DNA of 64,000 nucleotides from Haloarcula pelagica (GTDB taxonomy: Archaea; Halobacteriota; Halobacteria; Halobacteriales; Haloarculaceae), in the NCBI RefSeq assembly GCF_030127105.1, contig NZ_CP126161.1, positions 1,302,001 through 1,366,000 on the forward strand, written 5' to 3'. This document shows positions 35,641-41,969 of this stretch, one piece after another. A model generated the notes under the pieces. The model was not told the origin of the DNA. It searched no databases and was given only the letters and a program-made list of their open reading frames with translations. The translations under genes were made by a program, and so were the position numbers. The stretch's first letter is position 1, and each line of letters starts with the position of its first letter.

Positions 35641-35811
35641 CGATTGTTCCACTGTTCCGTCTACAGCGGTATGAGTCTTCTACATCTTTACTACACGTGG
35701 AATTAATCGAGTAAATATAACAAACGTTCAGTCACGAACGGCCGGCGAAAGTGTGTCACGACGTGTCGCACTGGCAGTGCAGTTTTCCGGCCCGACGCTG
35801 TGGTACGATTC

Positions 35812-36609
35812 ATGACAGATGGGAACGACTGGGACGCCACGGAGTACGACCGGGACCACGCCTTCGTCGCCCAGTACGGCCGGGACCTGCTGGAGCTGCT
35901 CGCCCCAGAACCCGGCGAGCGGATCCTCGATATCGGCTGTGGCACCGGCCACCTGACGGCGGCGATCGCCGACCGCGGGGCCGAGGTGGTCGGGATCGAC
36001 GCCGCGCCGGAGATGGTCGAACAGGCCCGGGCGGCCCACCCCGACTGCACGTTCCGGCAGGCCGACATCCGCGAGTACGACCCCGACCGCCCCTTCGACG
36101 CCGTGTTCTCCAACGCCGCGCTCCACTGGATTCCCGGCCCGGATCACGACGCCGTGCTGTCGACCGTCGCCGACGCGCTGTCCCCCGACGGTCGGTTCGT
36201 CGCCGAGTTCGGCGGCCACGGGAACGTCGCCGCGATCACCGACGCGCTCGAATCGGCGTTGGCCGACCGCGGCTACGAACGCTCCCATCCCTGGTACTTC
36301 CCCAGCGTCGGCGCGTACGCGCCACGCGTCGAGTCCCACGGGCTGGAACTGCGCCTCGTCCGGTTGTTCGACCGGCCGACGGAGCTGGACGACGGCGAGG
36401 CGGGGCTGCGTAACTGGATCGGGATGTTCGGCGACGAGTTTTTCGCCGGTGTCGACCCGACGGAACGCGAGACGGTGCTGGATACCGTCGAGGACCGGCT
36501 GCGACCGCGGCTGTTCGACGGCGAGTCCTGGACCGCCGACTACCGTCGGCTTCGGTTGCTGGCACGGCCGTACGCGGACGATACTCGACCGGGCCGGCCC
36601 GTCGAGTGA
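35812..36609 (+). CDS. SAM-dependent methyltransferase, trans-aconitate-methyltransferase-like
   Basis: A 265-residue class I methyltransferase. ILDIGCGTGHLTAAI at about residues 40-54 binds SAM, then VVGIDAAPEMVEQAR and FDAVFSNAALHWIPGPD follow. The SNAALHW segment and the C-terminal length match trans-aconitate 2-methyltransferase-like enzymes, but the substrate is not certain. ATG at 35812 is preferred over a GTG 12 bases upstream. Confidence 0.85.
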   Translation: MTDGNDWDATEYDRDHAFVAQYGRDLLELLAPEPGERILDIGCGTGHLTAAIADRGAEVVGIDAAPEMVEQARAAHPDCTFRQADIREYDPDRPFDAVFSNAALHWIPGPDHDAVLSTVADALSPDGRFVAEFGGHGNVAAITDALESALADRGYERSHPWYFPSVGAYAPRVESHGLELRLVRLFDRPTELDDGEAGLRNWIGMFGDEFFAGVDPTERETVLDTVEDRLRPRLFDGESWTADYRRLRLLARPYADDTRPGRPVE

Positions 36610-36675
36610 GCCGACCGTCGGCGGCACGGCCCTGCCCCGGTCAGCAGTTATCCCCCTGCCGCGCCTACGTCGACT

Positions 36676-37167
36676 ATGTCACTCTCCGAGGAGGTCGAGT
36701 CACTGATCGCCGACGCACCGCTGAGCGCACACCTCGCGACCAGCGTCGACGACCGGCCCCACGTCGCGCCGGTGTGGTACGTCTACGAGAACAGCGAGAC
36801 CTACCGTGCGGTCAGCGACCGAGCGGTCACGGAGTCCCCGCAGGTGTGGCTTCTCACCGGCGGGAAGAAACTCCGGAACGTCAGACAGAACCCCCGCGTG
36901 GCGCTCTCGATCGAGCGGGCCGACGAGTCCGGCGTCGACTGGGCCGCACAGCTGCTTGGGACGGCCCGAATCGTCGACGACGAGCGACAGGTAGCGACGA
37001 TCGAAGCGGCGCTCGATCGGAAGTACCGTGGCGGCGAGGGGACGACCGACGGTGGAACAGACGCCGGTGAGGACGGGACCGACGGTGGCGAGGAGTGGGC
37101 GCTCCTGGCCGTCCGGGTCGGGAGCGGGACGGCACAGCGTTACGGTTCCGAGAGCGGCGAGGGGTAG
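36676..37167 (+). CDS. Pyridoxamine 5'-phosphate oxidase-like (PPOX) protein
   Basis: A 163-residue split-barrel flavin-binding protein. The core is LSAHLATSVDDRPHVAPVWYV and KKLRNVRQNPRVALSIE, followed by LLGTARIVDDERQV. A Gly/Asp/Thr-rich low-complexity loop occupies about residues 116-137. Members bind FMN, F420 or heme; which one is unclear. Its 3' end overlaps the convergent histidine kinase gene by 28 bases. Confidence 0.85.
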   Translation: MSLSEEVESLIADAPLSAHLATSVDDRPHVAPVWYVYENSETYRAVSDRAVTESPQVWLLTGGKKLRNVRQNPRVALSIERADESGVDWAAQLLGTARIVDDERQVATIEAALDRKYRGGEGTTDGGTDAGEDGTDGGEEWALLAVRVGSGTAQRYGSESGEG

Positions 37168-38858
37168 AGCTCCGTCACCTCGAACCGGGCGCCGCCGCCC
37201 TCGCTGTCGGCGTACTCGATCGACCAGCCGTGGGCCTGGACGATCCGCTCGACGATCGCCAGCCCGAAGCCGGTGCCGTCGCTCTCGGTCGTCACTCCCA
37301 ACTCGAACACGTCGCCGCGCTCGGTGTCGGAGATGCCCGGACCGTCGTCGGCCACGTAGAACCCGCCGTCGAAGGCCCCGACGGTCACTGCTACGTCCGC
37401 ACCGCCGTGCTCGATGGCGTTGCGAAAGAGGTTCTCGAACACCTGTCGCAGTCGGGTCTCGTCGGCGACCACCGTCTCGTCGGTCTCGATGGTCAACGTC
37501 GCCGTCTCGGTTCCCACCGCCGCCCAGGCCGCCCGGCAGACCGTCGCGAGGTCGACCGACTCCTTCTCGTCGATGGTCTGGCCCTCCCGCGCGAGGTGTA
37601 ACAGCTCTTCGAGCATCGTCTCCATGCGCGTGATCGCGTCACTGGCGTCGTCGAGGTGCGAGAGCTCGCCCGTCCGGCGGGCCAGTTCCACCTTGCCGTC
37701 GATCACCTGCAGCGGGTTCCGCAGGTCGTGGCTCACGATGCCGGTGAACTCCTCAAGCCGCTCGTTTTGCGTTTCGAGCGCCTGTTGACGGGCCTCCCGC
37801 TCGGTCACGTCCCGCATGGCGATGACGTGTCCCCGGGCGATGTCGTACCGGTCGGTGATCGGGGTGGCGCGAACGTCGTAGGTCACCGAGACCAGCCGTC
37901 CGTCGTCCCGCCGTTGGGTCGTCACTTCCGTGGTGATCGGTGCCGCTCCGTCGCCGGCGTCCACTCCCCCGTCGGGCGACGCAACGACCTGTTGCAGGCC
38001 GTCGATGTCGACATCGGCGAGCGACGGGCGACGAGGGTCCGGCGGCAGATACGCCCCCGCGGCCTCGTTCCAGTCGACGAGCCGGCCCCGATGGTCGACG
38101 ACGTACACCGGGTCGACCAGTTCCTCGAACAGCGTGTCGGCCGCCATCGGCGTCACGTCGAGGAAGTCGTAGCGGTACAGCGCGATACCGATTCCGACGG
38201 CCTGGACGACGAAAAACAGTGGCGTCAGGTCGATCCCGGGCCGAATAGCGATCCCGGCGTAGAAGCCGGCGTTGGCGACCGTGATCGCCAGCGTGACGGT
38301 AAAGACGATAGCAGTCTGTTTGCGGTAGAGGTTCCGTGCGGTAAAGAGCAGGCGGCCGAGTAACAGGAAGGAGACGCCGAGGAGTGCGTAGACGATCACC
38401 AGTTCGGCGCGCGCGACGACACCGAGTTCCTCGACGACCACCCGAAACACACCGTAGGTAGCCTCCCGCCGCTCGGGGACGACGATCCCGCCCGGATTGA
38501 GCAGGTACAGAACGGTGTAGATCGGACCCTGAGCCACGATCAGTTGCCTGAGGCGGGTCGGTACTCGATCGCTGTCGCCCGTGTACTCGACGACGAACAG
38601 GAAGAAGAAACTGGCCGACAGCGCGGCCGACAACGTGACGAGCGCGCCCCACACGGCCGCCGGGAGCCCGAACAGATCGAGTCCTTCGGCGAGCGTGAAC
38701 AGCGCCCAGCACCCGTCCGTGAACAACAGCCGTGCGAAGGGGTCCGACACCGGGTGGTCAGAGCGCCGCCCGGAGTACCATGCGAACCCGAAACTGGCGA
38801 CTGCGGCGATCCCCAGGAGCGCCAGGATGAGCGTGCTCGCCGCAACGACACCAGCCAT
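37140..38858 (-). CDS. Membrane sensor histidine kinase (7TM-PAS-HisKA-HATPase)
   Basis: A 572-residue two-component sensor. Residues 1-230 hold about seven transmembrane segments of the histidine-kinase N-terminal 7TM type. A PAS domain runs from about 240 to 355 (DPVYVVDHRGRLVDWNEAA, then VIAMRDVTEREA). HisKA follows with phospho-acceptor H377 in IVSHDLRNPLQ, and the ATPase has NLFRNAIEHGG, DDGPGIS and GTGFGL. No response regulator is adjacent, which is common for haloarchaeal kinases. The signal is unknown. Confidence 0.92.
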   Translation of the reverse strand: MAGVVAASTLILALLGIAAVASFGFAWYSGRRSDHPVSDPFARLLFTDGCWALFTLAEGLDLFGLPAAVWGALVTLSAALSASFFFLFVVEYTGDSDRVPTRLRQLIVAQGPIYTVLYLLNPGGIVVPERREATYGVFRVVVEELGVVARAELVIVYALLGVSFLLLGRLLFTARNLYRKQTAIVFTVTLAITVANAGFYAGIAIRPGIDLTPLFFVVQAVGIGIALYRYDFLDVTPMAADTLFEELVDPVYVVDHRGRLVDWNEAAGAYLPPDPRRPSLADVDIDGLQQVVASPDGGVDAGDGAAPITTEVTTQRRDDGRLVSVTYDVRATPITDRYDIARGHVIAMRDVTEREARQQALETQNERLEEFTGIVSHDLRNPLQVIDGKVELARRTGELSHLDDASDAITRMETMLEELLHLAREGQTIDEKESVDLATVCRAAWAAVGTETATLTIETDETVVADETRLRQVFENLFRNAIEHGGADVAVTVGAFDGGFYVADDGPGISDTERGDVFELGVTTESDGTGFGLAIVERIVQAHGWSIEYADSEGGGARFEVTELYPSPLSEP

Positions 38859-38937: not shown

Positions 38938-40944
38938 CTACGCCAGGAACACGTGTCGCGGTCGATCCGCCAGCACGTCCCGTCCCCAGTCGACGGTCTC
39001 GGAGAACTCCTCGGAGCGGAAGAACGTCATCGCGTCCTCCTTGCTGTCCCACTGGCTCGCGATGAACATGTCGTTCTCGTCGTCGTAGTTCGCCAGCAGC
39101 GCCGTCTCCCGGTGGCCCTCCATCTCCGCGAGCAGGCCGCCGACGGTGTCGAACTTCTCGACGAACTCCTCGCGGTACTCTGGCTTGACCGTGTAGAACA
39201 TCCCCATCGTCCCGAAGCCGTCGCTCTCGCCCTGCCGGCGGACGACATCGGGGAGGTCGGTCAGGTAGCCGCTCGCGGTCTGGGCGGCGTCCTCGGTGTC
39301 CCACAGCGAGGCGACGGCGGTGGTTCCCGAGTCGGTGTCCCGGTAGATCGAGGTCCGGACGTGGGTGTCGTAGCGGTCGAAGGCGCCCCGCAGGTCCGCG
39401 ACCTCGGCCGCCAGGTCCTCGGGGTCGGCCGCCGAGTAGACGACCAGGGCGTACACGTCTTCGCCGTGTGGCTGGCCGGCGTAGACGCCCGCCTCGTCGA
39501 GTTGCTCCCGGATGGATTCCGAGGACGCCGCGGCCTGGTCGTCGGTGTCGTCGACGCCCTCGCCGAGCTGGCCGCCGAACTGCTGTTCGATGCCGTCGAG
39601 GTCGCTGAGGAATCCCGCGGCGGTCTCGGCGGCTTCCTCGGCGGTCCAGATGCTCACGACGAACGTCTGGCCGCTCTGGGCCCGCACCGTCGTGGTGACG
39701 TGGCGGTCGTAGTGGTCGAAACTCTCCGCGAGGTCCTCGACATCGTCGACGATGTCCTCGGCGTCCGCGCTCGAATGGAAGAGCAGCGCGAAGTCCCCGG
39801 CGTCGTAGGTCTCGCCCTCGTGGAGTCCGAGTCGGCCGACGCGCTGGACGGCGTCGTCGACGACCTCGTAGTCGCCCGAGACATCCGGTCGGCCGCCGCC
39901 GGAATCGTCGCCGTCGTCTCCGTCGTCAGTCGGGTGCTCCCCGTGCTCGCTCGCCGGGCGGTCGGCGTCGTCGCCCGTCTCGCCGTGGGGATGGTCGCCC
40001 TCGCCGGCGCTCCCGGGGTGTGCGCCGCTGTGGCCTTCGGTGTCGCCGGCCGTCCCGCCGTCGTCCGCGTGGGCACCCGCACCGTGGTCGGCGTGGGCGT
40101 CGGTCTCCGTCTGTCCGGCGTGGGCCTCAGGGACACCACCCGTGGTGTCCGTATCAGTCGGGACGCGCTGGCCGGCAAGCACCGCGGGCAGGTCCCCGGG
40201 GGCGAACTTCCGGCCGACGTAGAAGGGGCCAAACTCCGCGAACTGGGAGGTCGAGGGGTCGAACCGCATCTCGGTCAGGAGTTCCTTGATGCTTGTCATT
40301 TCCTCGCTCCAGAGGGTGATCCCCCACTCCCAGTCGTCGAAGCCGATCGAGCCACAGATCATCTGGTTCACGTCGCCGCCGTACCCGCGACCGATGTCGC
40401 CGTGGCGCTTGATGTGGGCGGCCCGCTCCTCGAAGCTGGTGTCGTACCAGTTCTGGTCTGGCTGGCGGCGTTTGCTCATCGGGTAGAAACAGACGAACTC
40501 CTCGTCGGGCACGTCGGGGTGGAGGCGAGCCTGGATGTACTGTGCCAGCCCGGAGTCGTCGTCGACTTCCCCCTCGAAGTACTCGCGGGACTTCTCGGTG
40601 TAGCCCGACGCCTCCGTGACCGAGACGTAGGAGAACTCCTGTTCGGTGAAGGCGGCGAACTCCGTCTGTTCGAAGTGCCGCTCCGCGGCGTCGAGATCGC
40701 CCATCGTCGGCCGCAGGTGGAGGATCATGATGTCTGCCTTGTGGCCAAGCACCGTGTAGACGGCCGTCTGGCCCGCTTCGCTGTCCTCGACGGCCTCGTA
40801 GGCCGACAGGAAGTCGATCCCCTCCGAGAGCGCCCGGTCACGGACCCGCTGGGGGGCCTCGCGCCAGGCGTCCCAGTCGATACTGCGACAGTCGTGCAGG
40901 ACGTACCAGCCCTCCTCTGTCGCCGGCGGCTTGCGTTGCTCCAT
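38938..40944 (-). CDS. HemQ/chlorite dismutase-family heme protein with three extra C-terminal domains (PitA-like)
   Basis: A 668-residue fusion. Residues 1-250 form a chlorite-dismutase/HemQ domain with the heme-proximal His-181 in RHGDIGRGYGG. Tyr-154 in CFYPMSKRR is the residue used for coproheme decarboxylation in HemQ. A disordered, His/Asp/Gly-rich linker spans about 265-355. Then come two similar domains of about 90 residues (360-455 and 480-572), recognisable by matching segments DAEDIVDDVEDLAESFDHYD and DPEDLAAEVADLRGAFDRYD, and finally an antibiotic-biosynthesis-monooxygenase-like domain (about 576-668, GMFYTVKPEYREEFVEKFD). Haloarchaeal PitA proteins join a Cld-type and an ABM domain; the doubled middle domain goes beyond the simple layout I know. 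ATG at 40944 is preferred; ATG at 40983 would add 13 residues. Confidence 0.85.
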   Translation of the reverse strand: MEQRKPPATEEGWYVLHDCRSIDWDAWREAPQRVRDRALSEGIDFLSAYEAVEDSEAGQTAVYTVLGHKADIMILHLRPTMGDLDAAERHFEQTEFAAFTEQEFSYVSVTEASGYTEKSREYFEGEVDDDSGLAQYIQARLHPDVPDEEFVCFYPMSKRRQPDQNWYDTSFEERAAHIKRHGDIGRGYGGDVNQMICGSIGFDDWEWGITLWSEEMTSIKELLTEMRFDPSTSQFAEFGPFYVGRKFAPGDLPAVLAGQRVPTDTDTTGGVPEAHAGQTETDAHADHGAGAHADDGGTAGDTEGHSGAHPGSAGEGDHPHGETGDDADRPASEHGEHPTDDGDDGDDSGGGRPDVSGDYEVVDDAVQRVGRLGLHEGETYDAGDFALLFHSSADAEDIVDDVEDLAESFDHYDRHVTTTVRAQSGQTFVVSIWTAEEAAETAAGFLSDLDGIEQQFGGQLGEGVDDTDDQAAASSESIREQLDEAGVYAGQPHGEDVYALVVYSAADPEDLAAEVADLRGAFDRYDTHVRTSIYRDTDSGTTAVASLWDTEDAAQTASGYLTDLPDVVRRQGESDGFGTMGMFYTVKPEYREEFVEKFDTVGGLLAEMEGHRETALLANYDDENDMFIASQWDSKEDAMTFFRSEEFSETVDWGRDVLADRPRHVFLA

Positions 40945-41075
40945 GGCCGGCGGTTCGGCGTGGACGCTAACGAACCTTCCCATCTCCCAGCGACCGCCCG
41001 AATCGGAGGCGATCGACCGCGCGACGATCCTGTGGTCCACAAGACACTTTCCGTCCGAAAGACGACCCGACGGCC

Positions 41076-41969
41076 GTGAACCGACGTAGCTATCTCGCCC
41101 TGTTCGGGACGACCCTCGGTTCCCTCGGTGGCTGTGTGCAGTCACCGGGTCGCGGGCCCTCCACCCCGCCGACCGACGAGACGACCCCCGCATCGACCGA
41201 CGACGGGTCGACACCCACGCCGACGACGACCGCCGACCGAGAGCGTGTCGGGATCGGCGAACATGTCACGATCGACGGCACCAGCGTCACCGTCGCGAAC
41301 CCGCGTGTCAGGCTCGCGATACCGTTTTCGGGGATGCACGTCCTTCCGCTGACGACCGACGTGGGCCAGTTCGTCGTCGTCGACGTGACCGTCGACGGGA
41401 GCCCAGCGGCCGAACTCGACGGGGAACTCGCCGCCGTCGTCGACGGGGAGCGGGTCCAAGAGAGTTCCGGGCAGGCGACCACGACCCAGGGGTCGTTCGG
41501 CGTTCCGTTCCCCGTGGGCGCCCACGAGACGGCCGCAGTCCGTCGGACGGCCGGATCGACCGTCGTCGAGTGGGGACTTCCCGGGGCGGTCCGGACCGCG
41601 CTCGCCGAGACGCCCGCGTTCCGCGTCACGTCGTTCGAGAGTCGCCTGCACGAGGGCCAGCGGGTCGTCGAACTGACGGTCCGCAACGACGGCGGCCGGG
41701 ACGGGCAGTTCCTCGGTCGTCTCTCGTTCGAGGGGTTCAGCGGCGGCGACATCGTCTCGTTCGGGGTCCCGGCCGGCGAGTCCGAGCGTTACAGCGGCCG
41801 GCCCGGAAAGGTCCTGCTGTACTTCGAGAACGACGGCGGCGGGACGCTCACGCTGCAGTACCCCGGTCCTGACGGGATGGAGTCGGTCGAACACACCGTC
41901 TCCGTCGACACCGAGACGGGGTCGCCAGCGTCGACGGCGACCGAGACGCCGACCGTGGTCGATCAGTGA
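41076..41969 (+). CDS. Putative secreted lipoprotein, beta-sandwich type
   Basis: A 297-residue protein starting with GTG. Signal: MNRRSYLALFGTTLGSLGG then Cys-20, a twin-arginine-type signal with lipobox. A Thr/Pro-rich linker (residues 25-55) follows and then about 230 residues of beta-rich sequence with FVVVDVTVDGSPAAELDGEL and VVELTVRNDGGRDGQFLGRL, similar to DUF4352-like extracellular domains. A Thr-rich tail ends the protein. Function unknown; it converges on the CDP-archaeol synthase gene with four bases between stops. Confidence 0.75.
   Translation: MNRRSYLALFGTTLGSLGGCVQSPGRGPSTPPTDETTPASTDDGSTPTPTTTADRERVGIGEHVTIDGTSVTVANPRVRLAIPFSGMHVLPLTTDVGQFVVVDVTVDGSPAAELDGELAAVVDGERVQESSGQATTTQGSFGVPFPVGAHETAAVRRTAGSTVVEWGLPGAVRTALAETPAFRVTSFESRLHEGQRVVELTVRNDGGRDGQFLGRLSFEGFSGGDIVSFGVPAGESERYSGRPGKVLLYFENDGGGTLTLQYPGPDGMESVEHTVSVDTETGSPASTATETPTVVDQ

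Follow-up and report, generated by a model that had tools for sequence, protein, structure and literature searches.

A long-form PitA in Haloarcula pelagica and the varying copy number of its middle domain

The pitA locus

The window analysed here is a stretch of 64,000 nucleotides from Haloarcula pelagica (contig NZ_CP126161.1, positions 1,302,001 to 1,366,000). Positions 38938-40944 of its reverse strand are occupied by a long-form pitA gene, an open frame that starts with ATG, contains no internal stops and encodes 668 amino acids followed by a stop codon. The NCBIfam model for PitA-type proteins, NF007124 (PRK09565.1), spans residues 1-668 with its positions 1-637 at 1062.7 bits, above the curated cut-off of 446 bits. 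An open reading frame of 708 amino acids on the opposite strand (38953-41079) looks like a high-GC shadow of pitA.

The Pfam search of the protein returns Chlor_dismutase at residues 50-246 (6.9e-60) and ABM at 582-652 (2.9e-11), with no credible match between the two. Taken together, Pfam, NCBIfam and a purpose-built profile of the middle domain, here called M, give the order of the parts: a coproheme decarboxylase (ChdC/HemQ) domain, a His/Asp-rich linker, the domains M1 and M2, and an ABM domain. A ChdC domain is thus tied to an ABM-like part through a His-rich linker, as is characteristic of PitA. The initial annotation, made from the sequence alone, had described a multi-domain HemQ/PitA-type protein with a duplicated middle, and the reading frame, Pfam, self-alignment and an AlphaFold2 model all confirm this description. 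Its domain parts stand, but its view of the layout as unusual does not, and the question it raised about the ChdC site already has a published genetic answer in Haloferax volcanii (see below). The protein is an ordinary PitA, typical of its lineage.

The genes flanking pitA encode a 7TM histidine kinase, a lipoprotein-like ORF, CarS and proline dehydrogenase. They are mostly not conserved beside pitA, and no link to the heme pathway is seen in this neighbourhood. A gene without a Pfam match (35728-36627, reverse strand) is, in several Haloarcula loci, the next gene downstream of pitA and shares its strand; in the window, the gene of the 7TM histidine kinase (37140-38858) is placed between the two.

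The ChdC domain and its active site

The ChdC/HemQ domain comprises residues 1-256 (40177-40944, reverse strand). Besides the match to PF06778 (6.9e-60), it is matched by the solved HemQ structure 1t0t at 1.9e-62, and the NCBIfam HemQ model NF008913 spans residues 7-254 at 285.8 bits. Y154, M156, W166, H181, Q194 and R227 are invariant in all 131 aligned sequences, and K158 is present in 129 of the 131. H181 is the proximal His, Y154 the catalytic Tyr and Q194 the distal Gln of the firmicute type, so that the proximal His and catalytic Tyr that the initial annotation took to be intact are found throughout the alignment. The firmicute HemQ/ChdC enzymes (1t0t, 4wws; NF008913) have the same catalytic Tyr, proximal His, distal Gln, Met, Lys and Trp. 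Unlike the PitA of the window, these enzymes are without the linker and the M and ABM domains. They also receive their coproheme from ferrochelatase, whereas the genome of the window has no ferrochelatase by PF00762.

The Pfam family bears the name chlorite dismutase, and the N-terminal domain might accordingly be read as a chlorite dismutase (Cld) or a general peroxidase rather than a coproheme decarboxylase. The catalysis of ChdC is assigned to the Tyr, and firmicute ChdCs carry a distal Gln in place of the Arg of Cld (PMC7611857). In the window protein Gln194 stands against the distal Arg of Cld, and Tyr154 takes the place where Cld has Ile. These two residues rule out a chlorite dismutase proper. 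Heme, moreover, restores aerobic growth of the H. volcanii pitA mutant (PMC5746218), and we regard the chlorite dismutase or peroxidase reading as very improbable.

The linker and the duplicated middle domain

The linker (residues 257-359; 39868-40176, reverse strand) is defined by its composition, with 10 His and 19 Asp in 103 residues, and is the long His/Asp-rich segment that had been recognised at the outset. Its length and His content differ among the PitA relatives.

M1 (residues 366-461; 39562-39849, reverse strand) contains H411 and H415 in the motif HYDxH and matches the M profile at 2e-37. M2 (residues 479-578; 39211-39510, reverse strand) contains H528 and matches the profile at 9e-42. 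About 38% of the residues are identical between the two (35 of 91 aligned pairs). Their alignment score of 181 compares with 30 +/- 6 for 500 shuffles, the highest of which reached 59, and the duplication is therefore far above chance; the two similar domains of about 90 residues proposed initially are real. The AlphaFold2 model of residues 360-668 contains three separate ferredoxin-like units at a mean pLDDT of 83.4, with the middle segments predicted as two domains. Together with the existence of relatives that have one copy, this structure prediction, which had been suggested as a check with the initial annotation, rules out one joint middle domain.

When modelled alone, M1 is likewise ferredoxin-like (pLDDT 92.2, pTM 0.83). 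This model matches a broad range of ferredoxin-like folds (Mesd/Boca, NikR, ACT, ABM), with ABM proteins ranking among the others, and the matches consequently give M1 no definite family. Pfam detects no ABM domain in the part of the window protein that M1 and M2 occupy, and a PDB sequence search with the M1 profile returned no credible match. When the profile of M1 or M2 is compared with that of the PitA ABM domain, the E values are about 1e-3 at a probability of only 20-25%, with reversed controls at 0.03-0.05; this alignment matches H611 of the ABM domain with the His that is invariant in M. The weak Pfam matches in the M region, to TraF_2, DAPDH_C and chimallin, occur in a minority of members, fall below the cut-offs in the window protein and were rejected. 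M is a domain without a Pfam entry.

The ABM domain and the conserved histidines

The ABM domain (residues 577-668; 38941-39216, reverse strand) scores 43.8 bits against PF03992, which has a gathering score of 23.1, and its unit of the model matches ABM proteins at a Z of about 11, in keeping with the ABM-like C-terminus of the initial annotation. PF03992 matches all 68 PitA relatives at an E value of 0.1 or better.

Several histidines of the tail are invariant. Both His of the HYDxH motif are present in all 52 copies of M1, which also has a near-totally conserved Trp. The second His of the motif (H528 in the window) is found in 76 of 76 M2 or single copies, and both H611 and H664 of the ABM domain in 77 of 77. 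In the AlphaFold2 model, each of the three units begins its strand 2 with the shared His (H415, H528, H611); H664, in the motif PRHVFLA, lies on strand 4 of the ABM domain, its last.

The proximal ligand of related heme proteins is a His on helix 2 in the IsdG type, whereas it is provided by helix 1 in Cld/HemQ and by strand 2 in siroheme decarboxylase (PMC4835899). In H. volcanii PitA, His444 was chosen as the proximal ligand through alignment to IsdG-type enzymes (PMC5746218), and this residue corresponds to H611 by distance from the C-terminus. However, helix 2 of the PitA ABM domain (model 276-298, residues 635-657) contains no His, and the domain thus lacks the proximal His on helix 2 that marks the IsdG-type heme oxygenases, a subgroup of ABM; its two invariant His belong to strands 2 and 4. 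His444 as the published ligand therefore merits a direct check, and the conservation of H664 makes it an alternative candidate for the heme ligand.

As a pair, M2 and the ABM domain of the model align with aldoxime dehydratases over 172-174 residues at 4.1-4.3 Å (Z 8.1-8.7) and partly with HmoB and LmHde. In these proteins tandem ferredoxin-like units form a heme barrel within one chain, and the same is predicted for M2 and ABM, although the packing of the two in the AlphaFold2 model is uncertain (pTM 0.57). The C-terminal 22-kDa proteolytic fragment of H. volcanii PitA is monomeric and holds heme. The whole protein contains 0.83 heme per subunit, with heme only in this C-terminal (M2 plus ABM) fragment (PMC5746218). 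An alpha+beta barrel within one chain fits both the pairwise fold match and the monomeric heme-holding fragment, and M2 and ABM probably pack as one such barrel that would hold the product heme.

Comparison with H. volcanii PitA

PitA of H. volcanii has 501 amino acids, and its heme-carrying fragment starts with AGKPH at residue 322 (PMC5746218). The corresponding AGQPH of the window protein starts at residue 489 of 668. Both starts leave exactly 180 residues, the length of M2 plus ABM. The two proteins share the ChdC domain, the His-rich linker and the C-terminal part. Residues 1-321 of the H. volcanii protein correspond to ChdC and linker and leave no room for M1, which the window protein has in addition. 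From the published fragment data we infer that H. volcanii PitA has one middle domain. The known PitA layout had initially been called simpler; this holds for H. volcanii, but the two-domain layout is normal for the lineage of the window and falls within NF007124.

Distribution and copy number of the M domain

NF007124 matches 113 of 116 genomes of the family to which the window belongs, including all 81 of the good ones, and 144 of 145 genomes of the class. M copies were counted with the M profile in 79 named loci: 20 have one copy, 54 two and 3 three, and 2 are fragments. One copy is found in Natrinema, Natronorubrum, Haloterrigena and Halopiger, which places the Natrialbaceae among the one-copy groups, and also in Haladaptatus, Halorussus, Haloarchaeobius, Halorubellus, Halalkalirubrum and others. 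Two copies are found in Haloarcula, Halomicrobium, Halorientalis, Halosimplex, Halovenus, Halorhabdus, Natronomonas, Salinarchaeum and others. Three copies occur in Natronomonas CBA1123, a Haloarculaceae MAG and Halapricum CBA1109, in which the gene is split over two frames. All intact Haloarculaceae PitA proteins examined have two or three copies. The initial annotation had allowed that every PitA might carry both middle segments; the one-copy families show otherwise.

Beyond the 79 loci, two further three-copy proteins, L077 (756 amino acids) and L076 (919 amino acids), come from one genus of the window's family and fall among Natronomonas in the PitA tree. The three-copy loci by their labels are L076 (genome G107), L077 (G104), L134, L136 and L157, the last split over two frames. 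L076 has a long low-complexity stretch of the TDE/ADS type between its second and third M copies. Two genomes of other families, G172 (L059, L060) and G201 (L051, L072), have two one-copy pitA genes each.

The tree of 142 M domains has a branch (SH-aLRT 99) with every one of the 80 last or single copies on one side and 59 of the 60 upstream copies on the other. The single copies group with the last copies, and the single copy of short PitA is therefore orthologous to M2. By this tree M1 traces back for the most part to a single old duplication, while the one upstream copy that does not fit, the first in a Natrialbaceae MAG (L155), suggests a separate duplication. A tree of ChdC plus ABM, with the middle part left out, needs 9 changes of copy number. 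A topology that unites the single-copy proteins in one clade is nevertheless compatible with the data (p-AU 0.213), and the one-copy state may be either ancestral or derived.

The M pair occurs outside PitA too. A protein from a genome of the window's family (G034; L080:809-1975, reverse strand) lacks ChdC but combines a pair of M domains with a copper domain of the plastocyanin/azurin type (PF00127); its start carries a twin-arginine signal and is lipobox-like. A full-length protein of this type is present in 1 of 96 genomes searched.

PitA in heme synthesis

Deletion of pitA in H. volcanii slows aerobic growth, which is rescued by heme, and deletion of ahbD affects only anaerobic growth (PMC5746218). 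Family searches of the window's genome found one full-length AhbC-like gene at 435 bits, below the curated cut-off of 650, one AhbD-like gene at 331 bits, below the cut-off of 500, and no ferrochelatase (PF00762). The H. volcanii phenotypes, combined with the AhbC- and AhbD-like genes and the lack of ferrochelatase, point to PitA and AhbD as the aerobic and anaerobic last steps of heme synthesis, and by analogy it is most likely PitA, in place of AhbD, that completes the pathway aerobically in the organism of the window. The initial annotation had found an intact ChdC site puzzling in an organism with the Ahb route; the site is indeed intact, but the puzzle is largely answered by the pitA and ahbD genetics of H. 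volcanii (PMC5746218).

By combining these data, the likely working of the protein can be outlined. AhbA, AhbB and AhbC would supply Fe-coproporphyrin III from siroheme. The N-terminal domain would then convert it, with an oxidant, to heme b; the radical would form on Tyr154 and His181 would bind the iron, and this step would stand in for AhbD when oxygen is present. The flexible His-rich linker would tether the tail of ferredoxin-like units, in which the barrel of M2 and ABM would hold the product heme. M1 is an extra unit from the old M duplication, perhaps serving in subunit pairing or in further binding of heme or metal. For H. pelagica itself, the aerobic role, the source of the coproheme, the barrel, the binding of heme by the C-terminal part and whatever M1 does are all inferred. 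We nevertheless consider it likely that the protein is, as a whole, a long-form PitA coproheme decarboxylase, an aerobic substitute for AhbD with a linker-tethered, heme-holding tail and an extra M1.

Possible roles of M1

In this superfamily a ferredoxin-like unit usually joins a second one to form a barrel, either through dimerisation or as a tandem (PMC4835899), and M1 is left over once M2 pairs with ABM. It may thus act as a spacer in the structure, or promote oligomerisation by pairing with the M1 of a second subunit, and bind no heme. Its loss or gain in whole families that keep the gene itself agrees with such a role, to which we give a substantial, though somewhat less than even, chance; the almost complete conservation of HYDxH and a Trp, on the other hand, hints at a role beyond that of a spacer. 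Alternatively, M1 might be a further heme- or metal-binding site that enables each subunit of the long PitA to store or hand over more heme than a subunit of H. volcanii PitA does. The invariance of H411 and H415 (52 of 52), the location of H415 at the same place as H528 and H611, and the presence of up to three M copies in some lineages speak for a binding site. However, an invariant His can be structural or metal-binding, and H. volcanii PitA has one heme per subunit despite having, as far as can be judged, both the M2 and the ABM His, so that a His alone does not imply bound heme. A binding role for M1 appears unlikely, if worth considering. It is conceivable, though more doubtful still, that the PitA tail can be extended, with one to three ferredoxin-like, His-bearing units before ABM that can each hold heme or metal, and that it takes product heme from the decarboxylase, the copy number of the units tuning storage or hand-over by lineage.

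Our literature search found no published description of varying M-copy number in PitA. This variation in an unnamed domain is what is new here, and it is real but modest; the main role of PitA had already been established in a relative, and the advance is correspondingly modest. It corrects the view that every haloarchaeal PitA has the H. volcanii layout and points to a domain missing from Pfam. The one-, two- and three-copy PitA proteins form a natural series for probing the role of the tail in holding newly made heme.
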